This document shows, in pieces, positions 2,518 through 56,097 of a stretch of DNA of 56,720 bases (positions are counted from its first letter, which is position 1; the number at the start of each line of letters is the position of its first letter). The translations under genes and the position numbers were made by a program. The stretch lies in assembly GCF_000701365.1 (NCBI RefSeq), contig NZ_JNIK01000007.1, positions 1 through 56,720 on the forward strand. Reading direction: 5' to 3'. Origin of the DNA: Blastococcus sp. URHD0036. Its GTDB lineage: Bacteria; Actinomycetota; Actinomycetes; Mycobacteriales; Geodermatophilaceae. The notes under the pieces are model-generated. The model searched no databases, was not told the origin of the DNA, and was given only the letters and a program-made list of their open reading frames with translations.

Positions 2518-2532
2518 GTGGATCCAGGACAC
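2518..2532 (+). promoter_or_regulatory. candidate GntR operator upstream of the first P450
   Basis: GGATCCAGGACAC at 2520-2532 differs at 2 of 13 positions from the perfect palindrome GTATCCAGGATAC found at 56085. It lies about 90 bases before the P450 start, in a 217-base gap otherwise free of genes. Recurrence of the motif at other promoters in the window supports a regulatory role; this single site alone would not. Confidence 0.5.
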
Positions 2533-2623
2533 GGCGGCGTGTAGCCTGGCACATAGAGGGTCGAACAGCCACAACTGTCGCGCACCGCACCTCTCGACAG
2601 CAGCCCTTGAGACCGGAGTGCCG

Positions 2624-3871
2624 ATGTCAGCGCCCGCCCAGCAGATGCCGGAATTCGACCACTACTCGGACCATTACACGCAGAACACCGAGCAGGTGCT
2701 CGCCGACCTGCGCCGCAACAGCCCGGTTGCCTACTCCGGGGCGTACGAAGGCGGGTTCTTCATCGTCAGTCGGTACCAGCAGGTACGTGACCTCCTGGCC
2801 GACCACGAGGGCTTCAGCTCCGCCAAGTGGGTGGACGATGACGGCACCCGGAAGGGCGGCGACAGCATCCCGTCCAGCGGTCAGCCGCCGCTGCTGCCGA
2901 TGGAGCTGGACCCTCCCCAGGCCACGGACTATCGCCGGCTGCTGTCCCCCTGGTTCAGCGTCAAGCGCGCAGAGCAACTGCGCCCGCGCATCACGGAGTT
3001 GACGAGCGCGCTGATCGACGAGCACATCGAGCAGGGTCGGCTCGACGTCGTCCTGGACATCGGGAACCCCGTACCCGCCATCGTCACCTTGGAGCTGATC
3101 GGGCTCCCCGTGGACGACTGGCACAGCTTCGCCGACCCGATGCACCAGATCGTGGCGGCACTGCCCGGTAGCGAGCCCTTCCTGCGGGCCGCCGAGGGAG
3201 TGGCTCGCGTCTCGGCGGCCTTGGCGGAGCTCGTGGCGCAGCGGCGCGCCAGCCCGGCGGACGACCTGGCCAGCCACCTCTGCCAGGCCCAGGTGAACGG
3301 CGCCCCGATTCCGGACGAGGACATCGTCAACATCCTCATGACCGTCGTCGGTGGCGGGGTGGACACCACCACCAGCGCCATCGCGGGCGCGATCGGCTGG
3401 CTCGACGAGCATCCCGAGGACCGGCGGCGGCTCATGGAGGAACCGGAGCTGCTGCCCGTCGCGACCGAGGACTTCATCCGCTACCTCACGCCCGCCCAGT
3501 TCCTCAGCCGGACCGTGCGCAGGCATGTCGAGGTGGCCGGTCAGCCGCTCGTCCCCGGAGACCGGGTGGCGCTGTCGCTGGCCTCGGCAAACCGGGACGA
3601 GACGGTCTTCGAGCGCGCCGACGAGGTCGTCGTCGACCGCCAGCCCGTCCGTCACATCGGTTTCGGCTTCGGCGTCCACCGCTGCATCGGCGCCCACCTC
3701 GGGCGGGTGGAGCTGCAGGTCATGCTGGGAGAGCTGCTCCGCCGAGTGCCGGACTTCCGGGTCCAGGCGGACGACGTCCAGCGCTATCCGAAGCGGGCGA
3801 AGGTCAACGGGTACGTGCAGATGCCCATCACTTTCCGCCCCCGGCCGCGCCAGGGCGGCGACTCCATCTGA
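2624..3871 (+). CDS. cytochrome P450 with DxxR in place of the ExxR motif
   Basis: The 415-residue soluble bacterial P450 has an I-helix GGGVDTTTSA near residue 245 and a heme-binding loop FGFGVHRCIGAHLG with the cysteine thiolate ligand near residue 350. ATG 2624 is chosen because it gives a normal N-terminus; an in-frame extension upstream has no family features. In the K-helix, where nearly all P450s have ExxR, the sequence reads ATEDFIRYLTP, so an aspartate replaces the invariant glutamate. It would hydroxylate a hydrophobic substrate using external ferredoxin and reductase, neither of which is encoded nearby. A candidate GntR operator lies upstream. Family secure, substrate unknown. Confidence 0.92.
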   Translation: MSAPAQQMPEFDHYSDHYTQNTEQVLADLRRNSPVAYSGAYEGGFFIVSRYQQVRDLLADHEGFSSAKWVDDDGTRKGGDSIPSSGQPPLLPMELDPPQATDYRRLLSPWFSVKRAEQLRPRITELTSALIDEHIEQGRLDVVLDIGNPVPAIVTLELIGLPVDDWHSFADPMHQIVAALPGSEPFLRAAEGVARVSAALAELVAQRRASPADDLASHLCQAQVNGAPIPDEDIVNILMTVVGGGVDTTTSAIAGAIGWLDEHPEDRRRLMEEPELLPVATEDFIRYLTPAQFLSRTVRRHVEVAGQPLVPGDRVALSLASANRDETVFERADEVVVDRQPVRHIGFGFGVHRCIGAHLGRVELQVMLGELLRRVPDFRVQADDVQRYPKRAKVNGYVQMPITFRPRPRQGGDSI

Positions 3872-4078
3872 CCCGGCCGGTTGTGCGCGGCGGCGAAGGC
3901 GTTCGCCTCCGACGTCGCGATGAAGGTGACCACCGACGCCGTGCTGTTGTTCGTCGGTGCGGGCTACACCTCCGACTTCCCGGTCGAGCGGATGATGCGC
4001 GACGCCAAGATCACCCAGATCTACGAGGGCACCAACCAGGTCCAGCGCATGGTCATCGCCCGCAGCCTCCTGCGGTAG
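3872..4078 (+). pseudogene. acyl-CoA dehydrogenase C-terminal fragment
   Basis: Directly after the P450 stop codon, in the same frame, come about 65 residues that match the C-terminal helix bundle of short-chain acyl-CoA dehydrogenases: [14 protein letters not shown], then [16 protein letters not shown] and [18 protein letters not shown]. No start, FAD-binding region or upstream two-thirds of the gene remains. It is the 3' scar of a deleted acyl-CoA dehydrogenase gene joined to the P450 end, and is unlikely to make a useful product. A TTG at 3881 could formally start translation but has no ribosome binding site. Confidence 0.8.
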
Positions 4079-4095
4079 CACCCTCCCACCCGCGA

Positions 4096-4122
4096 GGGGC
4101 CGGCTGCACCGCAGCCGGCCCC
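4096..4122. terminator. bidirectional hairpin terminator
   Basis: A perfect 12-bp stem (GGGGCCGGCTGC and its complement) closes a 3-base loop between the convergent P450 and SDR genes. No long U-tract follows, as is common for actinobacterial terminators. Confidence 0.65.
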
Positions 4123-4200
4123 AAGTCCCGTTCCGCTGAGCCCTGCGAGGCCTCTACCCGACGACCGACGGGGGCCTGAGCGGCTGTCGTCCCAGGAGCA

Positions 4201-4962: not shown

Positions 4963-5070
4963 CTGTGCTCCTTCGGCTGTGTCTGTCGGGTGAGCACGGT
5001 GCCACTCGACCGCGGTGGTCCTGTGCCCGTCGTGCCGCCGCGACGGGGCCGGTCGCGTGGGCGGGGGTCG

Positions 5071-5922: not shown

Positions 5923-5955
5923 ACGAACACCCCTCACGCCGAACATCTCGCAGCG

Positions 5956-5981
5956 GTTACTGAATCCAGGATACGTTACTG
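5956..5981 (+). promoter_or_regulatory. candidate GntR operator in a divergent promoter, flanked by direct repeats
   Basis: GAATCCAGGATAC (5962-5974) differs by one base from the perfect palindrome at 56085. It is bracketed by two direct copies of GTTACTG (5956-5962 and 5975-5981). The site sits in the middle of the 96-base gap between the divergent 3-hydroxyacyl-CoA dehydrogenase and SDR, so one bound protein could control both directions. Confidence 0.6.
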
Positions 5982-6018
5982 TGCCTCTGCGCCCGAACGA
6001 CGGAAGGTGGACCAGCAG

Positions 6019-6795: not shown

Positions 6796-6820
6796 CTCCA
6801 ACGTTCAGAGAGGACCCTCC

Positions 6821-13883: not shown

Positions 13884-14013
13884 CTAGTCGCCGGGCGACC
13901 CGCTGTCCGTGTTTCCTGAATACGGCATCCAGTTGCGTCCTGGGTATGGCGCGGGTTACGTTCCGGTTGTCCTGAGCAACAACGGCATCCTTCGCGCGAG
14001 AGGGTGGGGCGAC

Positions 14014-15928: not shown

Positions 15929-15941
15929 GTTGTCAGGATAC
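15929..15941 (+). promoter_or_regulatory. candidate GntR operator before the solute-binding-protein remnant
   Basis: GTTGTCAGGATAC matches the 13-base palindrome at 10 positions, including a complete CAGGATAC half. It ends 6 bases before the ATG of the signal-peptide remnant at 15948. An intact paralogue of that gene has the same type of site upstream. Confidence 0.4.
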
Positions 15942-15947
15942 GAATTC

Positions 15948-16401
15948 ATGCTGGGTGCTCGGCGGTTTCGAGCTTTGAGCGTTGCGGTCGTGACCGGTGT
16001 GGTGCTCTCGGCGTGTGGGGGTCACATCCAGTGATGACTTCGACGCCGGCGGAGGGACGCTGGACACCTCGGCGTCGATGTCGTTGGGCGTGCTCTCCAC
16101 TCCCACATCCTTCGACCCGGCGCTGAGCCGCGTCCCGTACGTGAGCGATGCGCAGTTCCTGTCACCGGTCTACGACCAGCTGCGCGTGCTGGACGAGGAC
16201 CTGCAGATTGCTCCCCTCCCGGCCTCCGCCTGGGAGATGAGCGAGGACGGCATGGCCCTGACGTTGACGCTGCGCACGGACGTAACGTTCCAGGACGGCA
16301 GTGCGTTCGACCAGGTGACCGCCGACTGCGCCACCGACTGGATCGACCGCCACCGGATCGAGCGACCGACGACCGGCCCCGACCTGACGCTCGGCTCCTG
16401 A
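15948..16401 (+). pseudogene. remnant of a family 5 solute-binding lipoprotein gene
   Basis: ATG 15948 opens a lipoprotein signal peptide ending VVLSACGG. The frame then closes at a TGA after HIQ. The mature domain continues in the +1 frame: TPTSFDPALSRVPYVSD, FLSPVYDQLRVLDEDLQI and VTFQDGSAFD match the intact binding protein at 23761-25338 segment by segment. Similarity stops about residue 110, and the rest of the roughly 525-residue gene is gone. So there is a frameshift at about 16020 and a 3' deletion. The intact relative binds peptides or other small organic solutes for an ABC importer. Confidence 0.8.
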
Positions 16402-22437: not shown

Positions 22438-22450
22438 GGGTTCAGGATCC
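22438..22450 (+). promoter_or_regulatory. candidate GntR operator before the broken GntR gene
   Basis: GGGTTCAGGATCC is identical to the 13 bases at 52805-52817 in front of the intact paralogue. It keeps the CAGGAT half of the palindrome. It lies about 60 bases before the ancestral start position, the same distance as in the intact copy, which suggests autoregulation. Confidence 0.5.
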
Positions 22451-22510: not shown

Positions 22511-23241
22511 AGGGCCGCGGACTCCATCGCCGTCAATCCGTTGCAGCGCGTTCGCCTCGTCGACCAGGTGACGGATCGCTTGCGCGACATGATCATCAGC
22601 GGCGAGGTGTCTCCGGGCTTCCCCTGTTGCAGATCCAGCTGTCCGAGCAGTTCGGCGTCCGCCGCACCCCTCTCCGCGACGCGTTCCGGATCCTCGAGCG
22701 CGACGGGTTGGTCCGGGTGACCAACGGCAACCAGACCGTCGAAGTCATCGAGATGACCCCGGCGGAGATCATCGACCTGTACCAGATCCGCGAGTCACTC
22801 GACGGACTCGCCACCAGACTCCTCGCGACCTGCGGGATGAGCAGCCAGGCCGAACAGCGCCTGGTGCGGTCCCTCGCCACCTTGGACGAAGTCATGTCGG
22901 CCGAGCGACTCGACATCGCCGCATACAACCCGGCCTACATCGACTTCCACCTCGGCATCATGCTGGCCAATCCGAACCGGCGCCTGCAGGAGCTGCAGCA
23001 CATCGTGCGTCTCAGCTCGCAGATGTTCCTGCCCCGCTACCTGAGCAGGACGAGCGGCGACGAGTCCGAGTCCTTCAACGAGGAATACCTGCGGTCGCTG
23101 CTCATCGCGGGCAATGACGACCACCAGCAGATCTCTGAATCCATCAAGGCCGAGGACGCAACGAAGGCCGAGTCGTTGGCGAAGCGGCACATCCGCAAGA
23201 CGATCAGCGAGATCTCCCGCGCCACCAAGCGGCCCGAATAG
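22511..23241 (+). pseudogene. GntR/FCD-family regulator, start codon lost and frameshifted
   Basis: The sequence is a close paralogue of the intact regulator at 52876-53607. Aligning the leaders, the start ATGGCCGCGGAC of that copy reads AGGGCCGCGGAC here (22511), so the start codon is destroyed. The winged helix (LQRVRLVDQVTDRLRDMII) is then interrupted near 22624: one base is missing between GEVSPGF and LQIQLSEQFGV. The downstream FCD ligand domain (DLYQIRESLDGLA, NPNRRLQELQHIVRLSSQ) is otherwise well preserved to the stop at 23241. An ATG at 22454 could open the first frame but would still hit the shift. Two independent lesions make this a dead gene. Confidence 0.88.
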
Positions 23242-25338: not shown

Positions 25339-25432
25339 CCTAATCTCCTGGCTGTTGGATCTCCTGCTCCGCGCGGAGCGGGCGCGACGGTGGAGCCGTC
25401 GGATGTGGGGCACATTACATAGACCTGGGTGC

Positions 25433-25445
25433 TGGATCCAGGACA
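25433..25445 (+). promoter_or_regulatory. candidate GntR operator upstream of the binding-protein gene
   Basis: GGATCCAGGACAG matches 10 of 13 positions of the perfect palindrome and is nearly identical to the P450 site at 2520-2532. On the minus strand it lies about 95 bases before the start of the intact binding protein, with TATGTAAT between, a possible -10 region. Nothing else was recognised in 25339-25596. Confidence 0.5.
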
Positions 25446-25596
25446 GCAGGCACGAACCAGGTCGTTGCAACCCAACGGTTACCCGGCCGGGCAGGAGCAC
25501 TCTGGCCAACGGGATCGGTATCCACAGAGCCTCGTCACGCCGACTCAGGGCCGGCGGCCCTCGGCACGAGGCGCAGTGGTCCCATGCACCGGGCCA

Positions 25597-30864: not shown

Positions 30865-31278
30865 ACCCCCTGGCCGTGCCACTTGATCCCGGTGCATGCA
30901 GCCTGCGCGGGCCCAGGACCCCCTACTCGACAGCAGATCGGGCACGGGTCATGTGCGAATCTGGGCATCTCGAGCCGCCAGGCACTCGTCAGTGGGAGGT
31001 GCCCGCGCCTCTCGGTTGTCCCTTCTGCGCTCGACCGGGGCGCGAGGGCCGACTCACCGACCGGCGCGAATCCGTCGTCCCCACCGATGCGCTGCGCCGC
31101 CGGCGCACGGCCGGGGGGGGCCGGTCGTCGCCGATGAACCGGCTCGCAGGTCGACGTGCAGGAGGGGGACTCCGATCTGGGCTGTCCCTCGATCGCCTGG
31201 CCCTTGTTGCAGCGAAGATGAGCTCGACCGAGTGTCACTTGGACCGCGCGAATTGCAGACGGAGAGGAAGTAGCGGCC
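30865..31278 (+). other. intergenic region before the second synthetase operon
   Basis: These 414 bases separate two same-strand operons. I see no gene, no strong hairpin and no copy of either operator motif. A promoter for the downstream operon presumably lies near its right end; GGAGAGGAAG at 31260-31269 is the ribosome binding site for the next gene. Confidence 0.4.
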
Positions 31279-35095: not shown

Positions 35096-35895
35096 TGCGT
35101 CTCGTTCGCCGGTCCCTTCTGGTAACGGACGACATGGGGTCGCTGACGGGCGGGCCGGATGCCGTCGTCCTGGCAGACACGGTTTCCCAGACCGACGTCG
35201 ACCTGGCTGTGGAGGCGGGAGCCGACGTTCTCCTTCATCACACGGTGGGAAACGCAGATCGACTTCCCTCGGGTGCGGCCGGCCTGGTCGTCGATGCCGA
35301 CACGTCACGGGATATGCACGATGCGATCGGGCGTCTCGCGGCGACCGAGGCCTATCTGGGGGCTGGCCACCCGTTCTTCGAGTTGCTGCCGGTGATCTCT
35401 TCGCCGCTGGGGGTCTGGCGCGCTCGCGAGATCGCACGGTTCTCACGTGTCCGTCAGGTTGGATTCTGCGAGGACGCATTCATCCGTGCCATCGGCGGTG
35501 CTGTCGACGGCGGCGTGGATCCGTGCTTCTACGCTCGCGGACGAGTCGTCACCGAGGCGCTCGTCGCCGGAGCTCAACCAGTGTGTCGGGCGGAACGGCT
35601 GAGCTCGTCGATGTTGTTCAATGCGGGGTACCGCGGATTCCTGATCGACGATCCCGTCCTCATCGATCTGACCAATGACGTGCTGACGCCATCGGCTGAG
35701 GACGTTGCCTACGCAGAACAAGTCAGGGACGCCTTCATGGAGGGGGTCGCGGGTGGTACCGCTGCCGTTAGGCTCGGACAGCGGATGATCGACGTCCCCG
35801 TTTACAAGGCGGCGCTCGGCGTCCTCGAATGGGCGGATGCATGCGCGGCGCGCGAGAGCACGAAACGCGTCCCCAGGCAGAATCACTCCATGTAA
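35095..35895 (+). CDS. degenerate CitE-like protein, homologue 3
   Basis: The 266-residue protein keeps the CitE fold pattern: RRSLLVTDD at the N-terminus, LLPVISSPLGVWRAREIAR where active enzymes have IETxRGV, FYARGRVVTEALVAGAQPV, and the C-terminal TPSAEDVAYAEQVRDAF followed by MIDVPVYKAA. The metal-binding glutamate is replaced by serine and the LEDSV motif by LADTV, so lyase activity is doubtful. It starts within the stop of the preceding lyase and ends the operon. A non-catalytic or regulatory subunit for its neighbour is possible; alternatively it has a different reaction. Confidence 0.7.
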   Translation: MRLVRRSLLVTDDMGSLTGGPDAVVLADTVSQTDVDLAVEAGADVLLHHTVGNADRLPSGAAGLVVDADTSRDMHDAIGRLAATEAYLGAGHPFFELLPVISSPLGVWRAREIARFSRVRQVGFCEDAFIRAIGGAVDGGVDPCFYARGRVVTEALVAGAQPVCRAERLSSSMLFNAGYRGFLIDDPVLIDLTNDVLTPSAEDVAYAEQVRDAFMEGVAGGTAAVRLGQRMIDVPVYKAALGVLEWADACAARESTKRVPRQNHSM

Positions 35896-37776: not shown

Positions 37777-38835
37777 ATGACCGCTGACAGGCACGTGGCC
37801 GTGGTTCCCGGGGACGATGCGGCACCGGAGGCGGTGGACGCCACCATGTCCGTCCTCGAGCAGCTGGCGCTACCGGTCACATGGACGGTGCTGAAGCCGG
37901 GCGAGTCGCTCACCGCCGAACTGGCCGACGCCAGTGACACCGTGCTGTTCGGCTCGAGCAACGGGCACACCGGCGGACTGATGCAGCTGCGCTTCGGCTG
38001 GGGCACCTACGCGAATGTCCGTCCGGTGCGGTACATCCCCGGGGTGCCGAGCTCGCTCCGTCGACCCGACGACGTGGACTACGTGATCGTCCACGAGGCA
38101 CTGGAGGACGTGTACGCCGGCATCGAGGGCCCGCTGTCCCGGCTCGCTGCCGCCGGGGTCGACCTCACCACGCAGTACGAGACGGCCGGCACGCGACTGC
38201 GGTACCCGTTCACCGCCGCGGGTGAGGGGGTGTACGGCATCAAAATCTACACCCGGGAGGGGGTCGAGCGCGTGGCCCGATTCGCGGCGGCCCTCGCCCT
38301 CCGGCGCAAGGCGCAGGGGCACGCGGGCCGGGTCACCATCGGCGGCAAGTGGAACGTGAATCCCGGCACCGACGGCTTCTTCCACGACGTCGCCCGAGCG
38401 GTGATCGAGGAGACGCCGGGCGTCGCGTGCGACTCCTGCCTCGCGGACGACCTCGGTCGCCGATTCGTCATGAGCCCCGAACAGTTCGACGTCGTCCTGC
38501 TGCCCAACCTGCTCGGCGACGTCCTGTCCGATGTGGGCGCCGGCACGGTCGGCGGCCTGGGGATGGCGCCGAGCGGAGGCTACGGCGACAGCCGCGCGTA
38601 CTTCGAGCCCGTCCACGGGTCGGCACCGGACATCGCCGGTCGCAACGTCATCAACCCGACGGCCACTCTCCTGTCGGCCGCCATGATGCTGGACCACCTC
38701 GGGCTGACCGACGCGGCACAGCGGCTCGACTCGGCGGTGCGGACCGTCATCAGCGCCGGGGACTGCGCCACACCGGATCTAGGCGGCACGGCGTCCACAG
38801 GCGAGTTCGCCCGCGCGGTCGCCGGCTCCTGCTGA
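37777..38835 (+). CDS. isocitrate/isopropylmalate/tartrate dehydrogenase-family protein
   Basis: The 352-residue beta-decarboxylating dehydrogenase family member begins HVAVVPGDDAAPEAVDA and has LTTQYETAGTRLRYPFTAAG, GGKWNVNPG in place of the usual lysine segment, NLLGDVLSDVGAGTVGGLGMAPS with the metal aspartates, and FEPVHGSAPDIAGR, the NAD-binding loop, near residue 280. Family enzymes oxidise a 2-hydroxy acid carrying a neighbouring carboxylate and often decarboxylate it. The first strands diverge from LeuB, so this is not the leucine enzyme. It heads a three-gene operon; its TGA shares a base with the next ATG. AGGAGGGG precedes the start. Confidence 0.85.
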   Translation: MTADRHVAVVPGDDAAPEAVDATMSVLEQLALPVTWTVLKPGESLTAELADASDTVLFGSSNGHTGGLMQLRFGWGTYANVRPVRYIPGVPSSLRRPDDVDYVIVHEALEDVYAGIEGPLSRLAAAGVDLTTQYETAGTRLRYPFTAAGEGVYGIKIYTREGVERVARFAAALALRRKAQGHAGRVTIGGKWNVNPGTDGFFHDVARAVIEETPGVACDSCLADDLGRRFVMSPEQFDVVLLPNLLGDVLSDVGAGTVGGLGMAPSGGYGDSRAYFEPVHGSAPDIAGRNVINPTATLLSAAMMLDHLGLTDAAQRLDSAVRTVISAGDCATPDLGGTASTGEFARAVAGSC

Positions 38836-39689
38836 TGGGGCCGGATGGGATGCGGCCGCTACTGCACGGCTCGACCTGCGTGCGGCTGGCCTCGGTCTTC
38901 GATCCGCTGTCCGCGCGCATGGCCGCGGAACTCGGTTTCGAGGGCTGCATCTTGGCCGGTTCGGTCGCCTCGCTCGCCGTGCTGGGGGCGCCCGATCTGA
39001 TTTTGGTGACGCTCACGGAACTGGCCGAGCAGGTCCGGCGGATCACCCGTGCCGACCCGCCACCCCTGGTGGTGGACGCCGACCACGGCTTCGGGAACGC
39101 GTTGAGCGCCGCCCGCACGGTGCAGGAGCTCGCCGCGGCGGGCGCCGCGGCCGTCACCATCGAGGACTCCGCCCTGCCCGAGGCATTCGGATCCGGCGCG
39201 GCGGACGTGGTCGGTGTCGACGAAGCGGTCGGGAAGCTGCGCGCAGCCGCCGAAGCGAAGGCCGGCACCGACACGGTGGTGATCGCCCGGACCTCCGCCT
39301 ACGGGGTCGAGGGCCTGACCGCCACTCTCGAACGGGTCCGCCGCTACGCCGAGGCCGGCGCGGACGCGATCTTCGTGGTCGGGCTGCAACGGCTCGAGGA
39401 GGTCGCGGCCGTGCAGGACGCGGCAGGGGGACTGCCGCAGATGCTGTACGCCACGGGACCCGACATCGCGACGGGCGACCTCGCTCCGTTGGGCGTGCGC
39501 CTGCTCGTGGAAGGACACCTGCCGATGGTCGCGGCCGTCGAAGGCGCCTGGGAGGCGCTGTCGGCACAGCGGGACCGAGGCGCGTACCAGCCGCGGCATC
39601 CAGGACTGATCTCCCGGCTCACGCGGGCCGACGACTTCGAGCGACGGACGACGCGTTTCCTGCGACCCGACGGCACCGACCATGACTGA
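38835..39689 (+). CDS. isocitrate lyase/PEP mutase superfamily protein, oxaloacetate-decarboxylase type
   Basis: The 284-residue TIM-barrel protein has DADHGFGNALSAARTVQEL and TIEDSALPEAFG, the metal and lid region that closely matches the oxaloacetate decarboxylase (PA4872-like) branch of the PEP mutase/isocitrate lyase superfamily. The 2-methylisocitrate lyase branch has a KKCGH-type loop instead. Predicted reaction: Mg-dependent decarboxylation or C-C cleavage of a 2-oxo dicarboxylic acid. It starts in the stop codon of the dehydrogenase and overlaps the oxidase gene by 8 bases, so the three proteins are made together. It would act on the oxo acid from either neighbour. Confidence 0.85.
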   Translation: MGPDGMRPLLHGSTCVRLASVFDPLSARMAAELGFEGCILAGSVASLAVLGAPDLILVTLTELAEQVRRITRADPPPLVVDADHGFGNALSAARTVQELAAAGAAAVTIEDSALPEAFGSGAADVVGVDEAVGKLRAAAEAKAGTDTVVIARTSAYGVEGLTATLERVRRYAEAGADAIFVVGLQRLEEVAAVQDAAGGLPQMLYATGPDIATGDLAPLGVRLLVEGHLPMVAAVEGAWEALSAQRDRGAYQPRHPGLISRLTRADDFERRTTRFLRPDGTDHD

Positions 39690-40782
39690 CGACCAGGAAC
39701 CCGAGTTCGCGACGCTGCACGAAGTCGTGGCCGCGGCACGGGGGCGGCTCGAACCCCCGATCTGGGACTACCTGACCGGCGGCGGCGGCACCGAGACGAC
39801 CCTGGCCCGCAACCGGCTGGCGCTGGACCGGCTGGCGCTGCGGCCGCGCGTGCTGCGGAACGTGCGGGGCGTCGACGCAGGCACGAGCGTGTTCGGACGA
39901 CCGATCGCCCTGCCGGTGGCACTGGCCCCGGTGGGCTCTGTCGACAGCTTCGACTCCGGCGGCCTCGCCACCGTGGCGGCCGCGGCCGATCGATGCGGCG
40001 TGCCGATCTTCTGCGGTGGCCTCGCCCCGGAGGGTGCGGAGACGGTCGCCGCCGGAACGTCCGGGCCGAAGATCTATCAGGCGTACCTGCGTGGCGACGA
40101 CCCGAGACTCGACGAGCTCGTCGAGCGGGTCGCCGCCCTGGGCTACGACGCCTTCTGCATCACCGTGGATGCTGCCCATCCCGGCCGGCGCGAGCGCGAC
40201 ATCGCCCGCCGCTTCGTCAAGCCGTGGGTCGGTGCGGGTGCCCACCTGCTTGATCAGCCGACGCTGAGCTGGTCCGACGTCGAGCACTACCGAGCACGAC
40301 ACCAGCTGCCCTTGATCCTCAAGGGAATCGCGACGGCCGAGGACGCCGTCCTCGCGGTCGAGCACGGCGTCGACGTGGTTTACGTGTCCAACCACGGCGG
40401 TCGCCAGCTCGATCACGGCCGGGGTGCCCTCGACGTGCTGCCGGAGGTGGTCGCCGCTGTCTCGGGGCGGTCCCAGGTCTGGGTCGACGGCGGGGTGAAC
40501 CGCGGGACCGACGTGGTAAAGGCGCTCGCGCTCGGCGCCGATCTGGTCGGCATCGGCCGGATCTACCTCTACGGCCTCGCCGCAGCCGGCCAGGTGGGCG
40601 TGGAGACCGTGCTCCAGCTACTCGCCGCAGAGGTGCGCGAGGCCTTGGCGCTGTGCGGAGTGACGTCTCCCCGCGACCTGGGCCCTGCCTTCGTGACGAC
40701 GGCCGAGGCGGTGCGGCCCGTCCACGTGCTGAGCGCCTTTCCCTTGCTCGCGCCAGCGCTCGATTCTGACCCGACGGTGTGA
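39682..40782 (+). CDS. FMN-dependent alpha-hydroxy-acid oxidase/dehydrogenase
   Basis: The 366-residue FMN TIM-barrel enzyme resembles glycolate oxidase, lactate monooxygenase and mandelate dehydrogenase: IWDYLTGGGGTETTLARNR at the start, PVALAPVGSVD, the catalytic histidine and arginine in YVSNHGGRQLDHG near residue 235, and VWVDGGVNRGTDVVKALALGA for FMN phosphate binding. It converts a 2-hydroxy acid to a 2-oxo acid with flavin. It is last in the three-gene operon. A mandelate- or lactate-type substrate is possible but not shown. Confidence 0.92.
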   Translation: MTDDQEPEFATLHEVVAAARGRLEPPIWDYLTGGGGTETTLARNRLALDRLALRPRVLRNVRGVDAGTSVFGRPIALPVALAPVGSVDSFDSGGLATVAAAADRCGVPIFCGGLAPEGAETVAAGTSGPKIYQAYLRGDDPRLDELVERVAALGYDAFCITVDAAHPGRRERDIARRFVKPWVGAGAHLLDQPTLSWSDVEHYRARHQLPLILKGIATAEDAVLAVEHGVDVVYVSNHGGRQLDHGRGALDVLPEVVAAVSGRSQVWVDGGVNRGTDVVKALALGADLVGIGRIYLYGLAAAGQVGVETVLQLLAAEVREALALCGVTSPRDLGPAFVTTAEAVRPVHVLSAFPLLAPALDSDPTV

Positions 40783-41177
40783 TCCAGCTGTTGCCCGTGT
40801 CGACCATCCGATGCGCATGGGGGAACAGCGCGCCCGAGTACGTGGACTACCACGACGAGGAGTGGGGAGTGCCGCTGCACGGGGACGACGCCCTGTTCGA
40901 GCGGCTCTGCCTCGAGGCGTTCCAGTCGGGGCTGTCCTGGCTGACCGCTGTGACGTGCGCCGCGGTCCGCATGGAGACGTCCCCGTTCAAACCGCGTTCC
41001 TGTACCGGTTGGCGCACGGCTTCCACGCGCTCGGGCGTGTGGCCGCGGGATTGCGAACCGCGGCGCCGCAGTGGCTCAGGAGGCGGTACGCGTCACTTTC
41101 GCGCGCCGCGGACAAGGGCGCTGCACACACCCCCCGGTCCCGCTCCAGGTCTCCAGGGCTGCATGAAGCACGACTAG
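40779..41177 (+). pseudogene. tag: DNA-3-methyladenine glycosylase I remnant
   Basis: The N-terminal portion, IRCAWGNSAPEYVDYHDEEW, GVPLHGDDALFERLCLEAF and QSGLSWLT, is typical of Tag, which removes 3-methyladenine from DNA. Similarity ends at about residue 55, after which the frame encodes unrelated sequence. In another frame 40990-41110 reads FLYRLAHGFHALGRVAAGL and has coding character but is not recognised, so a foreign fragment may be fused there. A complete Tag is about 185-200 residues; this copy cannot be functional. Confidence 0.75.
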
Positions 41178-45206: not shown

Positions 45207-45219
45207 GATCCCTGGATTC
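45207..45219 (-). promoter_or_regulatory. candidate GntR operator before the second GntR gene
   Basis: On the minus strand GAATCCAGGGATC matches 9 of 13 positions of the palindrome GTATCCAGGATAC, including an intact ATCCAGG. It lies 73 bases before ATG 45293. It is one of the weaker sites, supported by its position upstream of a paralogous regulator that has a better site. Confidence 0.4.
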
Positions 45220-45292
45220 CGGACTCACGCACCCGCGCTCGTCTACAGTATCCCTCACGACTTCCGACGGCACCGGAGAGATGTGAGGTCCC

Positions 45293-46024
45293 ATGGCGGA
45301 CGAGTTGGGTCAGGCGAGTCCGCTTCAGCGGGTGCGACTCGTCGATCAAGTGACCGATCGGTTGCGCAGTATGATTGTCAGTGGGGAGCTTTTGCCGGGC
45401 CACCCGCTGCTTCAGATCCAGTTGTCCGAGCGTCTCGGCGTCAGTCGCACCCCGCTGCGCGAGGCGTTCCGGATCCTCGAGCGGGACGGGCTCGTCCGGG
45501 TCAGCAACGGCAACCAGACCGTCGAGGTCACCGAGATGACGCCGACGGAGATCACCGAGATCTACCAGATCCGGGAAGCCCTCGACGGACTCGCCGCCCG
45601 GCTGCTCGCGTCCGCGGGCATGACGGCCGAGGTTGAGAAGAGCTTGTCCCAGTCGATGACCAAGATGGACAAGATCCTTGCCCGCAAGCGCCTCGACGTG
45701 GCCGCCTTTCAACCCGCGCACATCGACTTCCACGTCGGCATCATGCTTGCGAACCCGAACCGTCGCCTGCAGGAGATGGCCCACATCGTGCGGCTCAGCT
45801 CCCAGATGTTCCTCCCCCGCTACTTGAACCGGACGCACGGCGGCGCAGCGAGAGCCGACGACGAGAAGTACCTTCGCTCTCTTTTCGACGTCGCGGCGGA
45901 CGACCACAAGGTGATCTTCGAGACGATCATGAGCGGCGACGCCGACAAGGCCGAAAAGATCGCCAAGCGACACATCCGCAGGTCGATCGAGACGATTGCG
46001 CGCACCACCCATCTCGACGCCTGA
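45293..46024 (+). CDS. GntR-family regulator with FCD ligand domain, intact copy
   Basis: The 243-residue protein has a winged helix-turn-helix in residues 8-80 (LQRVRLVDQVTDRLRSMIV, IQLSERLGVSRTPLREAFR, ILERDGLVRVSNGNQTVEV) and a helical FCD domain (EIYQIREALDGLAARLLAS, HIDFHVGIMLANPNRRLQE, RHIRRSIETIA). It has the same length as the copy at 52876 and is clearly paralogous, but it differs more than those two differ from each other. FCD GntR proteins bind small organic acids or acyl-CoAs and usually repress catabolic genes. The start is ATG 45293 with GAGGT upstream. It is a monocistronic gene between a hydratase pseudogene and IS debris. Confidence 0.92.
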   Translation: MADELGQASPLQRVRLVDQVTDRLRSMIVSGELLPGHPLLQIQLSERLGVSRTPLREAFRILERDGLVRVSNGNQTVEVTEMTPTEITEIYQIREALDGLAARLLASAGMTAEVEKSLSQSMTKMDKILARKRLDVAAFQPAHIDFHVGIMLANPNRRLQEMAHIVRLSSQMFLPRYLNRTHGGAARADDEKYLRSLFDVAADDHKVIFETIMSGDADKAEKIAKRHIRRSIETIARTTHLDA

Positions 46025-51002: not shown

Positions 51003-51008
51003 GGTGAT

Positions 51009-51674
51009 TCACTCCTCCGGTCGGGCCGCGGGGATGCTCCGCGTGCCCAGTAGTTGCTGGTGCAGGCTCAGTCCGAGCCAGTGTTCGTAGCGGTCGGGAG
51101 ACCAGCCGCGTGCGAGGAACTCCCGGTAGACGGCTGTTCGTGAGAGCGCCCAGACCACGTCGACCGCGGAGTCGACGTCGAGTCCCGTGGCCAAGGCGTC
51201 ACCAATCCCGGCGATCACGGCATGGATCCGGTCGTCGGCCTCCGATCGGAGGGACGTCCAGGTGTCTGCGACCCGCTGGTCGGCCCGGACCGCCTCCTCG
51301 ATGACCATCGAGAGGGTCGAACCGACCTCGTGCTGGTGACGGATCCACTTTGCGGTGAGCTGCAGGCGCCGCCTGGGGTTGGGCTCCTGCAGCGCTTCGT
51401 CCACCAGCCGGGTGACGTCGGCCTCGCTGAACCACAGCTTGCGCAGGTCGACGAGGATCTCGCGCTTGGAACCGAAGATCGCGTAGACAGTCTGGACGGA
51501 GACGCCTGCGGCGCGGGCGATGTCCTCGACGGTCGTACGCGCATAGCCCTGTTCCGCGAAGCGGTCCAGCGCCGCCCGCGCCACGGTCTCCCGCGTGGCG
51601 GCCGCCTGCCGCTGGCGGTGATTCACCCGCTTGGTGCCGCCTGCGAGCGGGTCGACGGTGTCGGCGGCCGTCAC
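51009..51674 (-). CDS. TetR-family regulator embedded in the kinase/ACAD operon
   Basis: The 221-residue protein has the TetR DNA-binding domain near residues 25-75: ETVARAALDRFAEQGYART, TVEDIARAAGVSVQTVYAI, FGSKREILVDL. The C-terminal half is helical and variable. GTG 51674 overlaps the upstream SDR stop (GTGA) and the gene ends 6 bases before the ACAD start, so the regulator is made with the enzymes it probably controls. It is a candidate ligand-responsive repressor for the GTTRAC-N6-GTYAAC sites, but nothing shows this directly. Confidence 0.88.
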   Translation of the reverse strand: MTAADTVDPLAGGTKRVNHRQRQAAATRETVARAALDRFAEQGYARTTVEDIARAAGVSVQTVYAIFGSKREILVDLRKLWFSEADVTRLVDEALQEPNPRRRLQLTAKWIRHQHEVGSTLSMVIEEAVRADQRVADTWTSLRSEADDRIHAVIAGIGDALATGLDVDSAVDVVWALSRTAVYREFLARGWSPDRYEHWLGLSLHQQLLGTRSIPAARPEE

Positions 51675-52456: not shown

Positions 52457-52519
52457 GACCCGCTCCTGGACGTCGACTTCACTGACTGGAGGCGAACTCT
52501 AATGAGAGTTCCGGCTGAT

Positions 52520-52542
52520 GTCCAGGATCCGATATCCTGGAC
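52520..52542. promoter_or_regulatory. two opposed GntR-like half-operators upstream of the kinase/ACAD operon
   Basis: GTCCAGGAT (52520-52528) and ATCCTGGAC (52534-52542) form a perfect 9+9 inverted repeat with a 5-base centre. Each arm aligns as a 13-base site with 2 or 3 mismatches to GTATCCAGGATAC. The pair could bind two dimers or a dimer in another register, and could control both the SDR operon and the genes to the right. Confidence 0.6.
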
Positions 52543-52592
52543 ACAGAGACTCGGCCCATCCGAGCCTCTATCTTCAAATGAGGAGAGACCTC

Positions 52593-52760
52593 ATGCAGTA
52601 CCGCCCCCTGGGACCCACCGGTCGGCACGATGATGTTCGGCGCGCGGGGCCCTGGCCACGGCGAGTCCATCCGGATAGTCCACGGCGCGCTCGACGCCGT
52701 GGTCACCATCGTGTCCACGTGGTCGACCCGGAGCGCCGTGCCGACGGACGCCGGAGCCGG
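52593..52760 (+). pseudogene. aldo/keto reductase N-terminal remnant
   Basis: After the ribosome site AGGAGAG, ATG 52593 encodes MQYRPLGPTG, the start of many aldo/keto reductases. About nine residues are missing and the frame changes, continuing as GTMMFGARGPGHGESIRIV and HGALDA, which match the family. Nothing further remains. The scar lies between the kinase/ACAD operon and the third GntR gene and keeps its own ribosome site, so an oxidoreductase gene formerly sat under the operator at 52520. Confidence 0.7.
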
Positions 52761-52804
52761 CCGACGTCCGGGCCGACTCGGCCGTGCCCCAACGACTGGT
52801 CCTG

Positions 52805-52817
52805 GGTTCAGGATCCA
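52805..52817 (+). promoter_or_regulatory. candidate GntR operator before the third GntR gene
   Basis: GGGTTCAGGATCC is identical to the site before the broken paralogue (22438-22450) and keeps the CAGGAT half. It lies 58 bases before ATG 52876. Conservation between paralogues while the leader bases between site and start have diverged argues for function. Confidence 0.5.
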
Positions 52818-52875
52818 ACCTACTGCGATACTCTCTGTGAAAAGCAATCTAGGTCGGCGAAGGGAAGGTGAGGGC

Positions 52876-53607
52876 ATGGCCGCGGACCCCGCAGCCCTGT
52901 ACCCGCTACAGCGCGTACGCCTCGTCGACCAGGTGACAAATCGCCTACGGGACATGATCATAAGCGGTGAGCTGTCGCCCGGTCTCCCTTTGCTGCAGAT
53001 CCAGTTGTCCGAACAGTTCGGCGTCAGCCGCACACCCCTACGCGAGGCGTTCCGCATCCTCGAGCGCGACGGGCTGGTGCGGGTCACCAACGGGAACCAG
53101 ACCGTTGAAGTCATCGAGATGACACCGGCGGAGATCATCGACCTCTACCAGATTCGAGAGTCGCTCGACGGGCTCGCCGCCCGACTGCTCGCGACCTCCG
53201 GGTTAAGCAGCGAGGTCGAGGCGCACCTGATCCGCTCCCTCGCCACCATGAGCGAGGTCATGTCCGCCGAGCGACTCCAGATCGCCGCGTACGATCAGGC
53301 GCACATCGAGTTCCACCTCGGGATCATGCGGGCCAACCCGAACCGACGCCTGCAGGAACTGCAGCACATCGTGCGCCTCAGCTCACAGATGTTCCTGCCG
53401 CGGTACATGAACCGGACGAGCGGCGACGAGTCCGAGTCCTTCAACGAAGACTGCCTACGGTCTCTCCTCATCGCGGGCAACGACGACCACCGGCAGATCT
53501 TCGAGTCCATCAAGGGCGGGGACGCCGCGAAGGCCGAGACTGTCGCGAAGCGGCACATCCGCAAGTGGATCAGCGAGATCTCCCGGGTCACCAACCGGCC
53601 CGTGTAA
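52876..53607 (+). CDS. GntR-family regulator with FCD ligand domain, intact copy
   Basis: The 243-residue protein has a GntR winged helix in residues 10-80 (LQRVRLVDQVTNRLRDMII, IQLSEQFGVSRTPLREAFR, ILERDGLVRVTNGNQTVEV) and an FCD domain (DLYQIRESLDGLAARLLAT, HIEFHLGIMRANPNRRLQE, QIFESIKGGDAAKAETVAK). ATG 52876 has GGGAAGG 8 bases upstream. It is very similar to the dead copy at 22511 and more distant from the one at 45293. It is the best candidate to recognise the GTATCCAGGATAC sites, since its own gene and many neighbours carry one. The likely effector is an acid or acyl-CoA of the pathway. Confidence 0.93.
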   Translation: MAADPAALYPLQRVRLVDQVTNRLRDMIISGELSPGLPLLQIQLSEQFGVSRTPLREAFRILERDGLVRVTNGNQTVEVIEMTPAEIIDLYQIRESLDGLAARLLATSGLSSEVEAHLIRSLATMSEVMSAERLQIAAYDQAHIEFHLGIMRANPNRRLQELQHIVRLSSQMFLPRYMNRTSGDESESFNEDCLRSLLIAGNDDHRQIFESIKGGDAAKAETVAKRHIRKWISEISRVTNRPV

Positions 53608-53610
53608 CTG

Positions 53611-54290: not shown

Positions 54291-54387
54291 TCCGCTACGC
54301 CCGCTCGACGAAGTGGTTGATGCTGAGCCAGGCCAGGGTGCTGACGCTAGGGATCGTCGCTCGCCCGCCGATCACGATGCGTCCCGA

Positions 54388-55026
54388 TCAGTTGCTGTCG
54401 GGAGGCGTGAGGAAGGCAACGAACTGGAGGAAGAAGTCGTCCTGCATCTCCTGGAAGCGCGGATCGTCCGGCCGGTTCCCGGTGATGAGCTCGACCACCT
54501 GCGGGAACATCTGAGGGAAGTTGGCCATGGCGAGGAGTGAGACCGCGATCATCGCCGGGGCGAGGTCCGCTCGAACGCGACCACTCGCCTGCGCCTCCTC
54601 GATCCGCTCCTGGTACAGCCGGAACGACGCCGTCCGCTCGTCGCGGAGCGTGATGCTGCCGGGCGTGCCGTCGAGCGCTTCCCAGAGCCAGAGCCGTCGC
54701 CAGTCGGCCTCAATGTCACTGCCGATACCCGCCTGGCGGCGCAGCCAGTCCAGGAGGTCTCTCGACCCCTCCTCCAGCGCGTCCATCCGGGCGTGGGACT
54801 GCTCGATCATCCGCTTGAGCGATTCGGCATACAGGCCCGACTTGTCGTTGAAGTAGTAGTAGATAAGGTTCTTGTTGCAGCCGGCGATGCGGGCGATCTC
54901 GTCGACACGCGCCCCTGCCAAACCCTTCTGGCGGAACTCCGATGCCGCCGCGACCAGGATCCGCTCGCGACTGTCGGGCGCGTCCGATGGGGGCGTCGAC
55001 GACCTACGCCGGTTGCTCGAAGTCAC
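54388..55026 (-). CDS. TetR-family regulator
   Basis: The 212-residue protein has the TetR helix-turn-helix in residues 18-68: SRERILVAAASEFRQKGLA, RVDEIARIAGCNKNLIYYY, FNDKSGLYAE. The C-terminal domain (WRRLWLWEALDGTPGSITL, MIAVSLLAMANFPQMFPQV) resembles the TetR_C group found near acyl-CoA genes. The start is GTG 55026. It lies 149 bases downstream of the enoyl-CoA hydratase on the same strand and could be co-transcribed or independent. Its target is unknown; it is one of three TetR candidates for the GTTRAC-N6-GTYAAC sites. Confidence 0.9.
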   Translation of the reverse strand: MTSSNRRRSSTPPSDAPDSRERILVAAASEFRQKGLAGARVDEIARIAGCNKNLIYYYFNDKSGLYAESLKRMIEQSHARMDALEEGSRDLLDWLRRQAGIGSDIEADWRRLWLWEALDGTPGSITLRDERTASFRLYQERIEEAQASGRVRADLAPAMIAVSLLAMANFPQMFPQVVELITGNRPDDPRFQEMQDDFFLQFVAFLTPPDSN

Positions 55027-55175
55027 CTAGCGCCACCCTTCCGTTCGTCCGAACGCCCGCCCAGCTGCACTCCGTCGAGGAGCTGATCGGGCGCGCAACA
55101 CACTAGCCGTCGGGCGCCAGCCCGTCGGGCACCAGGTCCGCCCGGCCGCGCCTCCCGACCTCCTGGCGGCGACGC

Positions 55176-55961
55176 TCAGCGGCCACTGAAGACCGCCCGG
55201 CCCGGCCCGTGCTCAAGGAACGAGCGCATGCCCGTCCGCTGATCCTCGGTGTCGAAGAGACCGGCGAACAGCTGGGTCTCGAGCGCCAGGCCCTTCGCGA
55301 GCGGCAGATCCAGGCCCTCGTCGATGGCGCGCTTCGCCGCCGCCAGAGCCAGCGGCGCGCCCGCTGCCAGCCCCCGGGCCATCGCCACGGACGCTGCGTA
55401 GACCTCGCCATCCGGGACGACTCCACCCGCCAGGCCGATGCCCATGGCCTCGTCGGCACCGATGTGCCGGCCCGTGAAGACGAGCTCTTTGGCCTTCGCC
55501 GGGCCCACCAACCGGGCGAGCCGCTGAGTGCCTCCGGCACCTGGGATCACGCCCAGTGTGGTCTCCGGCAGGCCGACCTTCGCGCTCTCAGCAAAGAGGC
55601 GGAAGTCCGCACACAGAGCCAGTTCCAGTCCGCCTCCCAGGGCGTAGCCGGCCACCGCGGCGACCACCGGCTTCGGGATCGTCTGGACGGCGTTGAACGA
55701 CTTGGTCAGCTCACGACCCCACTCCGCCATTCCTGCCGCGTCCAGCTTAGACATGGCCTTGATGTCGGCACCGGCGGCGAACGCCCGCTCACCGCCGTAC
55801 AGGACCACGGCGCGGACGTCGGGTCGAGCGGCTGCGTCCTCCGCAGCCGCACGCACCTCGAGATGCAGCTGCTCGTCGATCGCATTCATCTTCGGCCGGT
55901 CGAGACGGATGGTGCCGACCATGTCCTCGACCTGCAGTGTCACGTACTCCGAGTTCCCCAT
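55176..55961 (-). CDS. enoyl-CoA hydratase (crotonase type)
   Basis: This is a 261-residue crotonase with both catalytic glutamates: the oxyanion-hole AFAAGADIKAMSK near residue 65, YALGGGLELALCADFRL with the first glutamate near residue 110 and VGLPETTLGVIPGAGGTQR with the second near residue 132. It hydrates trans-2-enoyl-CoA in beta-oxidation. It is divergent from the acyl-CoA dehydrogenase at 56154; the 192-base gap holds the perfect GTATCCAGGATAC palindrome. The two enzymes catalyse consecutive steps and are probably co-regulated. Confidence 0.95.
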   Translation of the reverse strand: MGNSEYVTLQVEDMVGTIRLDRPKMNAIDEQLHLEVRAAAEDAAARPDVRAVVLYGGERAFAAGADIKAMSKLDAAGMAEWGRELTKSFNAVQTIPKPVVAAVAGYALGGGLELALCADFRLFAESAKVGLPETTLGVIPGAGGTQRLARLVGPAKAKELVFTGRHIGADEAMGIGLAGGVVPDGEVYAASVAMARGLAAGAPLALAAAKRAIDEGLDLPLAKGLALETQLFAGLFDTEDQRTGMRSFLEHGPGRAVFSGR

Positions 55962-56084
55962 GCCGCCTCCTCGCCTCGGGTGGCGGAGCCCTCACCGGCC
56001 CGCCCTCGGCACCGCTTTCGCGTCACCGCGAGCCCGACACCGCTTTCACTCCCGGGCCAGATGTTCGACACGGTGTGCGCAGTA

Positions 56085-56097
56085 GTATCCAGGATAC
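56085..56097. promoter_or_regulatory. perfect GTATCCAGGATAC palindrome, probable GntR operator
   Basis: The 13 bases are exactly symmetrical about a central A. They lie between the divergent enoyl-CoA hydratase and acyl-CoA dehydrogenase genes, 57 bases before the dehydrogenase start. This is the best copy of a motif seen at eight or more other promoters in the window and is used here as reference. Confidence 0.65.

Follow-up and report, generated by a model that had tools for sequence, protein, structure and literature searches.

The window analysed here is a stretch of 56,720 nucleotides from Blastococcus sp. URHD0036 that makes up the whole of contig C7. It raises the question of whether a short palindrome with an odd centre, found in front of several of its genes, is an operator, which protein would recognize it, and how far its reach extends. 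A sequence-only reading had proposed that paralogous GntR proteins bind the palindrome and unite scattered transcription units of the window into one regulon. Computation established where the sites are, how they cluster, that they stand at promoters, and that they accompany a GntR clade in very distant genomes. The motif is genuine and far more frequent than chance would give, and we consider a GntR-operator regulon on a catabolic island, taken as a whole explanation, to be quite likely.

Palindromic sites and GntR genes in the window

For the window, both strands were searched with up to three mismatches. The search resulted in 21 strand-matches, whereas 100 dinucleotide shuffles gave a mean of 5.08 and at most 12. 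Table 1 summarizes the features.

Table 1. Predicted operators, GntR genes, and contig overlap in the window (positions as start..end).
Feature	Position	Strand or adjoining genes	Details
Overlap with right end of contig C2	1..444		100% over 444 bp
Predicted operator GGATCCAGGACAC	2520..2532	upstream of cytochrome P450 gene	2 mismatches, 18.1 bits
Predicted operator GAATCCAGGATAC	5962..5974	3-hydroxyacyl-CoA dehydrogenase gene (-) / SDR/thiolase pair (+)	1 mismatch, 21.3 bits
Predicted operator GTTTCCTGAATAC	13911..13923	P450 gene (-) / TauD-family dioxygenase gene (+)	2 mismatches, 14.3 bits
Predicted operator GGGTTCAGGATCC	22438..22450	upstream of probably broken GntR gene	18.2 bits
GntR paralogue 1 (22627), probably a broken copy	22612..23241	+	84% identical over residues 35-242
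Two overlapping 13-mers, 7 bp apart (25427, 25434)	25427..25446	upstream of solute-binding-protein gene (-)	18.0 and 13.2 bits
Weaker predicted operator GGATTCCGGACTC	45214..45226	upstream of GntR paralogue 2	13.5 bits
GntR paralogue 2, intact, second proposed regulator	45293..46024	+	243 aa, 67% identical to paralogue 3
Predicted operator pair, centres 14 bp apart	52518..52544	upstream of SDR/TetR/acyl-CoA dehydrogenase/kinase row (-)	12.1 and 15.8 bits
Predicted operator GGGTTCAGGATCC	52804..52816	centre 66 bp before GntR paralogue 3 start	18.2 bits
GntR paralogue 3, intact, proposed regulator	52876..53607	+	243 aa, PF00392 + PF07729 FCD
Perfect operator (predicted) GTATCCAGGATAC	56085..56097	enoyl-CoA hydratase gene (-) / acyl-CoA dehydrogenase-like gene (+), the latter cut by the contig end and identified by eye	22.7 bits

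Every site named earlier lies outside called genes, as had been claimed. The perfect 13-mer at 56085 and the variants at 5962 and 2520, with one and two mismatches, were found as described, whereas other entries needed correction. The site given as 25433 has its three mismatches but starts at 25434, and the overlapping register at 25427 scores better. The opposed pair reported at 52520 and 52542 keeps its three and two mismatches, but occupies 52518-52530 and 52532-52544. The sites at 22438 and "52805" are indeed identical, with four mismatches each to the 13-mer, although the second starts at 52804; they share the 15-mer TGGGTTCAGGATCCA, which may be because the two gntR copies are duplicates. 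The match at 15929 has three mismatches as stated, but it is missing from the matrix hits of at least 6.5 bits and is therefore not counted as a site. The register proposed at 45207 reaches 7.3 bits only and gives way to the overlapping 45214. The site at 13911 was absent from the earlier list. Two further A/T-centred matches with two mismatches occur at 12063, which is coding, and at 31359, 10 bp before a called start and within a longer reading frame. The matrix scan found no non-coding site of at least 12 bits at about 28000-33400 and 37800-40800.

Two of the three GntR paralogues described earlier are intact, as the mention of "either intact GntR protein" there had implied, with E-values for the PF00392 winged HTH of 1e-15 (45293-46024) and 3e-16 (frame 52630-53607). 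In the third, at 22627, the N-terminal HTH part is out of frame, so that this copy is probably broken; it covers PF00392 profile positions 29-61 only. PF07729 FCD scores above the curated cut-off in all three. The window also holds three TetR genes (27297, 51009, and 54388).

Extent of the proposed regulon

The proposed regulon had been called window-wide, but it is rather island-wide, its remainder lying at C2:178233-251529. A matrix trained on the island, with its threshold taken from a control stretch and genes called by a simple script of our own, gave 33 non-overlapping non-coding island sites of at least 12 bits, 22 of them on neighbouring C2. The C2 end and C7 together comprise about 130 kb, or 2.5% of the 5.18 Mb genome, with a GC content of 69.7% versus 72.7%. 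We infer that this catabolic island was probably acquired laterally. Gene remnants and transposase genes are present in it, the remnants including the probably broken GntR at 22627, an aldo/keto-reductase-like one (about 52594-52870), a short solute-binding fragment (16078-16401), and a partial alcohol-dehydrogenase frame (C2:197645-198160).

A genome scan had been suggested earlier, with a motif as common within genes as at promoters to count as refutation; it gave the opposite picture. All 16 A/T-centred genome matches to GTATCC-N-GGATAC with up to two mismatches fall in C7 and the final 74 kb of C2, and 15 of them are outside called genes. The exact core ATCCWGGAT has 13 of its 15 genome copies in the island, against none for the reversed-pattern control. 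With the 15-mer, 18 of 22 matches at up to two mismatches are in the island, and one further match precedes a P450 gene at the low-GC end of C1; at up to three mismatches, there are 62 matches genome-wide versus 31 for the reversed control. A 1,079-bp stretch is duplicated at the C1 end, whose own site lies about 600 bp beyond it. One strong non-coding site outside the island, C6:40364 (21.4 bits), is in DNA of 74% GC.

Matrix hits of at least 8 bits numbered 49 in the 31.9 kb of non-coding and 13 in the 100.7 kb of coding island DNA, compared with 1 in 16.8 kb and 12 in 153.2 kb, respectively, for C2:1-170000. At 8 bits the island has 62 hits, whereas a first-order shuffle of the whole island gave 24.9; at 10 bits the figures are 47 and 9.5. 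Part of the weaker hits will therefore be due to chance.

This background bears on the possibility that the regulon is real, but that only a few strong sites work, most of the weaker ones being chance or remnants of duplicated promoters in a decaying island. The 9.5 shuffled hits, the gene remnants, the C1-end duplication, and the identical 22438 and 52804 sites before paralogous genes are in its favour. However, the flanks mostly differ, so the majority of sites did not arise from copied promoters; the symmetric positions, unlike the flanks, are conserved across sites, and we regard this version as unlikely, though it deserves some weight. Chance matches favoured by the lower island GC would be another account, and across 145 relatives the count at up to one mismatch (35, against 26 for the reversed pattern) is indeed near the control level. 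Yet no window shuffle reached the observed count, the reversed-pattern control gave 0 versus 15 and 0 versus 7 in this same genome, and enrichment was seen in held-out data from two other genomes. On this evidence, chance is refuted for the set as a whole and its probability is negligible; single weak sites may be chance.

Comparison with distant genomes

The decisive evidence comes from comparison. Whether motif presence tracks this GntR subfamily had been raised earlier as a check, and the two do occur together in very distant genomes, where relatives of the window FCD-type proteins, 34-44% identical, sit near the same palindrome. A perfect GTATCCTGGATAC lies just before gntR in all seven Ensifer/Sinorhizobium plasmid loci fetched of the 10 listed, so that a predicted operator at the regulator's own promoter, as at 52804, recurs there. 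Three Ensifer/Sinorhizobium replicons of 0.95-2.6 Mb were searched over their full length, and on each it is the only match with up to one mismatch; the reversed controls gave 1, 0, and 0. The 9-mer core alone is common on these replicons (10-33 copies on five searched), and therefore only the full 13-mer is informative there. The Ensifer palindrome is invariant in the seven sequences and lies between TTGAC and TACAAT, overlapping the latter; the leader below it is also conserved, and the upstream divergence comes mainly from one sequence.

In genome G176, all four matches with up to one mismatch are 7-13 kb from gntR (control 2), and on the Rhodococcus plasmid pRWAY01 all three are 11-37 kb from it (control 0). 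The held-out matrix at 10 bits resulted in 13 non-coding hits and 1 coding hit in 40 kb of G176, and 21 and 2 in 30.6 kb of pRWAY01. In both, a scan of roughly 460 bp ahead of the gntR HTH codons gave no site with up to three mismatches and hence lends autoregulation there no support; in the window, the site before GntR paralogue 2 is weak as well.

The word could also be a DNA-modification site, a dispersed repeat, or the trace of a mobile element: Dcm-type methyltransferases recognize CCWGG, most of our sites have an A/T centre within CC-GG, and remnants of genes occur in the island beside transposase genes. Against this, comparison of 25 sites by eye showed no shared sequence in their 15-bp flanks, the sites avoid genes, and all eight divergent regions of the C2 island part carry one of 12 bits. 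Moreover, G176 has C/G-centred versions such as GGATCCGGGATCC, not CCWGG, and the Ensifer copy spans the -35/-10 spacer. We consider such an origin very improbable.

TetR proteins, too, are known to have palindromes with an odd centre, and the gene at 51009-51674 belongs to the row beginning at the 52518/52532 operator pair. The palindrome might then belong to another factor, for example a TetR-type protein of the window, with the GntR genes as mere neighbours. However, GntR is the regulator found at all these loci (the island, G176, pRWAY01, and the Ensifer plasmids), and in Ensifer what looks like the gntR promoter itself contains the perfect palindrome. The available gene table, which is incomplete, lists no TetR for 30.6 kb of pRWAY01 or for the 12.6 kb surrounding the E. 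canadensis gene; the G176 stretch was read as N-terminal peptides. The C2 island part encodes no FCD protein, and among 53 of its 55 called genes (50 judged at E 1e-8 and three more at 1e-3) no other transcription regulator was found. Ownership by another factor is improbable in our estimate, and the two intact GntR paralogues are probably the local regulators, acting by repression.

Comparison with known regulators

In the literature searched, we found no description of this palindrome as an operator. A set of 38 sites gives the consensus TG[GT]ATCC-W-GGAT[AC]CA, which does not match the GT-N(2-3)-AC form typical of, though not universal in, the FadR subfamily. Our reference is the FadR-subfamily survey of Suvorova et al. 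(2015; PMC4494728). In its consensus, 2-3 nt separate GT from AC, which belong to TKGT/ACMA boxes, whereas our motif has an ATCC-W-GGAT centre with GT and AC at its outer ends only. The likenesses are the same two domains, catabolic and transport targets, an HTH through which a dimer would be expected to recognize a short palindrome, and a recognition helix SRTPLREA with the key arginine. The survey gives Glu-34 of FadR (HTH position 27) as a residue that bonds to the DNA-reading arginines; this clade has Gln instead. NanR and BioR, with the direct repeats TGGTATAW and TTATMKATAA, are likewise named there as off-consensus and are examples of individual FCD proteins that have departed from the family pattern, although their operators differ from the palindrome here; FadR-subfamily membership by domains therefore stands.

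Atu1419 (VanR group, PDB 6z74 and relatives), by sequence the second-best solved relative of paralogue 3, is an FCD repressor of a hydroxycinnamic-acid breakdown region (PMC7797058). It also has several palindromes per regulon, but its operator ATGTATACAT is an even 10-mer, and it keeps Glu at the helix-2 position. BphS (KKS102) and BphR1 (KF707; PMC10282184) are GntR regulators of biphenyl genes that resemble our proposed case in serving a pollutant catabolic cluster through promoter operators and answering to a pathway intermediate; theirs is one operon, whereas about 30 promoters would be concerned here.

Proposed regulation and its meaning

The favoured explanation is that TG[GT]ATCC-W-GGAT[AC]CA would be the operator of a small FCD-type (FadR-subfamily) GntR clade, whose two intact window members would, as dimers, occupy about 30 copies of it. 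The predicted targets, on one lower-GC island, are genes for beta-oxidation, acyl-CoA ligation, P450s, aldehyde dehydrogenases, amidohydrolases, and ABC transport. The proteins would most likely keep these promoters repressed and release them once the FCD domain has bound a pathway intermediate, either an organic acid or an acyl compound. From the patterns above we infer the physical binding, the repression, the nature of the ligand, and the assignment of paralogues to sites.

A broader reading, to which we give about even chances, joins a switch of code in the clade with retention across phyla, spread to about 30 promoters, and half-site relatives. The clade would be marked by Glu to Gln at HTH position 27 and by a new operator code with a CC-W-GG centre, the half-site TGTATCC, and sometimes a third half-site 7 bp away, retained from Rhodococcus to Ensifer plasmids. 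Related Gln-type proteins of the LRQ form, in an order sample, have lone TGTATCC half-sites upstream of their own genes in five of five cases, which look like an intermediate or simpler version of the code. With the operator spread over so many promoters, one local regulator type would govern much of the acquired island.

If this is right, a regulator and an operator sequence would be available for a family whose published consensus fails to predict the operator, and Glu to Gln at HTH position 27 would be a named, testable cause. The DNA word would serve as a marker for such catabolic islands in new genomes, and a large breakdown cluster would be wired to one local regulator type through a single operator repeated at about 30 promoters.

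Distribution of the Palindrome in the Genome

We searched the window, a complete contig (C7) within the 5.18-Mb, 19-contig genome, for the odd palindrome GTATCC-N-GGATAC. The search resulted in 21 strand-matches with up to three mismatches versus a shuffle mean of 5.08, and none of 100 shuffles reached 21. Genome-wide, 42 places matched with up to two mismatches versus eight for the reversed control. Sixteen of these are A/T-centred, and all sixteen lie in the island, defined as contig C2 from 178 kb plus C7 (about 130 kb); four of the 26 C/G-centred places lie there. The exact 9-mer ATCCWGGAT has 15 copies, 13 of them in the island (control, 0). The 15-mer TGKATCCWGGATMCA matched 22 places with up to two mismatches, comprising 18 in the island, one in the low-GC end of C1 before a P450 gene, and one each on C5, C6, and C11; with up to three mismatches, the count was 62 versus 31 for the reversed control. 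In 145 relatives, a hand count of palindrome matches with up to one mismatch gave 35 versus 26 for the reversed pattern. The excess over shuffles and the confinement of A/T-centred matches to the island upheld the palindrome proposed in the sequence-only reading, whereas its window-wide GntR regulon was replaced by an island-wide one.

The right end of C2 and the left end of C7 are adjacent, as their terminal 444 bases are identical and the reading frame of a FAD-binding oxidoreductase spans the junction. The GC content is 69.7% in C2 from 170 kb, 69.6% in C7, and 72.7% in C2:1-170000; the corresponding coding densities are 75%, 78%, and 90%, according to gene calls from a simple codon-usage script, used in place of a standard gene finder, that left gaps. 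The lower GC content and coding density, the transposase genes, and the lack of closely related GntR proteins within the family suggest a lateral origin of the island. The short or broken solute-binding-protein genes are signs of decay in it, and the 1,079-bp duplication probably broke the assembly at the left end of the window. The features are summarized in the table.

Coordinates of predicted operators, genes, and other features of the island and its genome
Contig	Position	Feature	Remark
C7	1-1079	Duplication of C1:271646-272724 (right end, reversed)	97.3% identity over 1,079 bp
C1	271037	Predicted operator TGGGTCCAGGATCCA	About 600 bp beyond the duplicated stretch, before P450 gene
C2	178233	Site	834 bp ahead of next called gene
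C2	179079-180116	Integrase-core transposase gene	Near left edge of C2 site cluster
C2	195.8-198.2 kb	Gap in gene calls	Partial alcohol-dehydrogenase frame (later scan); site at 197350 inside
C2	248977-250637	AtuA (acyclic terpene utilisation) family gene and AtuA ferredoxin-like partner	Predicted operator upstream at 250751
C2	188181/188188, 242137/242144	Third half-site 7 bp from palindrome centre	
C7	13911/13918, 22438/22445, 25427/25434	Third half-site 7 bp from palindrome centre	
C7	12063	Operator candidate	Set aside, coding
C7	15929, 45207	Operator candidates	Dropped
C7	31359	Operator candidate	Set aside, at gene start
C7	36046	Operator candidate	Set aside, between convergent genes, though counted among the 33 sites
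C7	16078-16401, 25597-27291	Short or broken solute-binding-protein genes	SBP_bac_5 matched in pieces only
C7	22612-23241	GntR paralogue 1	Probably a broken copy
C7	About 28000-35100	Acyl-CoA synthetase/HpcH stretch	No predicted sites
C7	36470-37237	ISL3-type transposase gene	Partial match
C7	37777-40782	Isocitrate-dehydrogenase-like/PEP-mutase-like/FMN-dehydrogenase stretch	No predicted sites
C7	41212-42087	Amphi-Trp domain joined to Lsr2 DNA-binding tail in one protein	Pairing judged unusual
C7	45293-46024	GntR paralogue 2	Intact
C7	52594-52870	Start of aldo/keto-reductase-like frame, soon broken	Between operator pair and paralogue 3 (by eye)
C7	52876-53607	GntR paralogue 3	Intact
C4	189520	Exact 9-mer	Outside island
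C13	10102	Exact 9-mer	Outside island
C6	40364	TGGATCCAGCATCCA, non-coding, 21.4 bits	Lone strong predicted operator outside island in 74% GC DNA; flanked by HxlR-type regulator gene and gene reading like MFS transporter

Matrix Scan and Position Relative to Genes

Fifteen of the 16 A/T-centred sites (up to two mismatches) lie outside called genes. A palindromic matrix built from the non-coding island sites contained 38 sites at convergence and took the form T-G-[GT]-A-T-C-C-[AT]-G-G-A-T-[AC]-C-A. At 8 bits, the island held 1.54 hits per kb in non-coding versus 0.13 in coding DNA, and C2:1-170000 held 0.06 versus 0.08. The two coding rates are comparable in magnitude, and only the island non-coding DNA stands out. 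The island yielded 62 hits at 8 bits and 47 at 10 bits versus 24.9 and 9.5 after first-order shuffling, so some of the weak hits are due to chance. Chance or base composition as the source of the whole set was rejected on the shuffles, the reversed controls, the island clustering, and the matrix. A dispersed repeat or a modification site was likewise rejected after comparison of the site flanks, the C/G-centred versions, and the matrix hits.

Raising the threshold to 12 bits left the island with 33 non-overlapping sites in non-coding DNA, 22 in C2 and 11 in C7. In the C2 part, sites occur in eight of eight divergent, ten of 26 tandem, and none of eight convergent intergenic regions; the respective C7 numbers are four of eight, four of 14, and one of eight. 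None of the 73 intergenic regions of the control stretch has a site at this level, partly by construction because the threshold was the third-best score of that stretch, and the comparison at 8 bits is the fairer one. Counting overlapping registers, 25 of 35 hits have a called start codon no more than 150 bp away. The site at 15929 and the register at 45207, both listed as motif variants in the sequence-only reading, were dropped due to low matrix scores. The mean outer half-site score is highest at offset 7, a distance partly favored by the palindromic half GGATCC, and the third half-sites may reflect cooperative or larger assemblies.

According to Pfam, the neighbours of the sites include acyl-CoA dehydrogenases, enoyl-CoA hydratases, AMP-forming ligases, a 3-hydroxyacyl-CoA dehydrogenase, and an SDR/thiolase pair. 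Further neighbours are P450s, a TauD-family dioxygenase, aldehyde dehydrogenases, a luciferase-like monooxygenase, amidohydrolases, a thiamine-diphosphate enzyme, and an AtuA-family protein. Transport is represented by an MFS transporter, an oligopeptide-type ABC transporter, a branched-chain-type binding protein, and a family 5 solute-binding protein, and the GntR genes themselves also adjoin sites. The AtuA gene and its ferredoxin-like partner, with a predicted operator upstream, are a hint of possible terpenoid degradation by the island.

GntR Proteins and Their Relatives

Nine FCD proteins exceeded the cut-off in the genome; the window encodes three of them, and the C2 portion of the island lacks any. 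The two intact paralogues have a common recognition helix, SRTPLREAFRILERDGLV; the broken copy (at 22627) has the helix RRTPLREAF and an N-terminal HTH part out of frame. A search of the genome's own contigs with paralogue 3 returned two weak relatives. In the family, six of 111 other genomes had a match at E 1e-20, all with 34-44% identity. Among 396 other genomes of the order sample, only one, G176, matched at E 1e-35 (44%), and in the phylum sample of 396 genomes no genome other than the window's own matched at E 1e-27; at most seven candidates per genome were scored in these two samples, so relatives may be missed. Within G176's own family (24 genomes), only G176 matched. The plasmid collection contained 13 matching records: Rhodococcus pRWAY01 (40%), ten from Ensifer/Sinorhizobium (34-37%), and Arthrobacter and Clostridioides (33-35%).

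All seven Ensifer/Sinorhizobium loci fetched (of ten) carry a perfect GTATCCTGGATAC whose start is 73 bp upstream of the gntR stretch that matched, and it is the sole match with up to one mismatch in the three such replicons searched whole. The matches with up to one mismatch number four in G176, at 7-13 kb from gntR, and three on pRWAY01, at 11-37 kb from it, the farthest beyond the fetched stretch. The Arthrobacter and Clostridioides loci had none with up to two mismatches. The island matrix, applied unchanged at 10 bits, gave 21 non-coding and two coding hits on pRWAY01 (30.6 kb), and 13 and one on G176 (40 kb). Both loci share part of the island enzymes: in pRWAY01, oligopeptide-type ABC permeases and one ATPase (64-73%) and SDRs (56-63%); in G176, a thiolase (60%) and an acyl-CoA dehydrogenase (48%).

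The Ensifer palindrome occupies the end of the TTGAC-TACAAT spacer and overlaps TACAAT, with the -35/-10 reading made by eye. It does not vary among the seven sequences, nor does most of the leader below; the upstream DNA diverges, mainly in E. canadensis. This position across the apparent promoter suggests that gntR is repressed by its own product in Ensifer. A TetR protein as the binder was judged unlikely, as the incomplete gene tables of the pRWAY01 and E. canadensis stretches list none. Around the solitary matches in four other genomes (G133, G127, G102, and G037), a pattern search of 14-40 kb, leaving out loci L044-L049, found no GntR-like recognition helix; some of these stretches hold two or three non-coding matrix hits of at least 10 bits (for example, two in G127 and three in G037).

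Residue at HTH Position 27

HTH position 27, equivalent to FadR Glu-34, is described as bonding to the DNA-reading arginines (PMC4494728). From 36 homologue loci, the recognition helix was found in 30 and the other six were omitted; the set did not contain the broken paralogue or loci L039 and L040. Sorted by eye, 18 of the 30, which are related sequences rather than independent cases, have Gln at this position, and the remaining 12 carry Glu. Of the 18 Gln-type loci, 12 show the half-site TGTATCC upstream of gntR; of the 12 Glu-type loci, none does. The Gln-type exceptions are paralogues 2 and 3, G176, pRWAY01, Arthrobacter, and one family genome; in the first four, the palindrome lies at other places in the clusters. 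Five Gln-type order-sample loci (L084, L085, L086, L088, and L089) have lone TGTATCC half-sites upstream, two in one locus, with a canonical TGGT-N3-ACCA palindrome lying another 120-270 bp upstream of them. Since the sequences are related, the apparent link between Gln and the operator is a lead, not proof.

Comparison with Known Operators

The FadR-subfamily consensus has GT and AC 2-3 nt apart (PMC4494728), whereas the predicted operator has ATCC-W-GGAT in its centre. The operator of Atu1419, an FCD repressor of the VanR group, is ATGTATACAT (PMC7797058), and NanR and BioR are named as other departures from the consensus (PMC4494728). Among the papers listed by an open-licence full-text search for the motif, none was on a GntR operator by title, and two contain the word GntR; subscription papers and RegPrecise, outside its scope, may describe it.

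By their domains, the proteins are ordinary FCD/GntR family members. What would be new is the variant operator predicted here, to which about 30 promoters of the island would be wired. Strong comparative evidence points to the motif as the operator of this GntR clade. By analogy with the family and the Ensifer promoter layout, these proteins would act as repressors, and their ligand may be a pathway acid.
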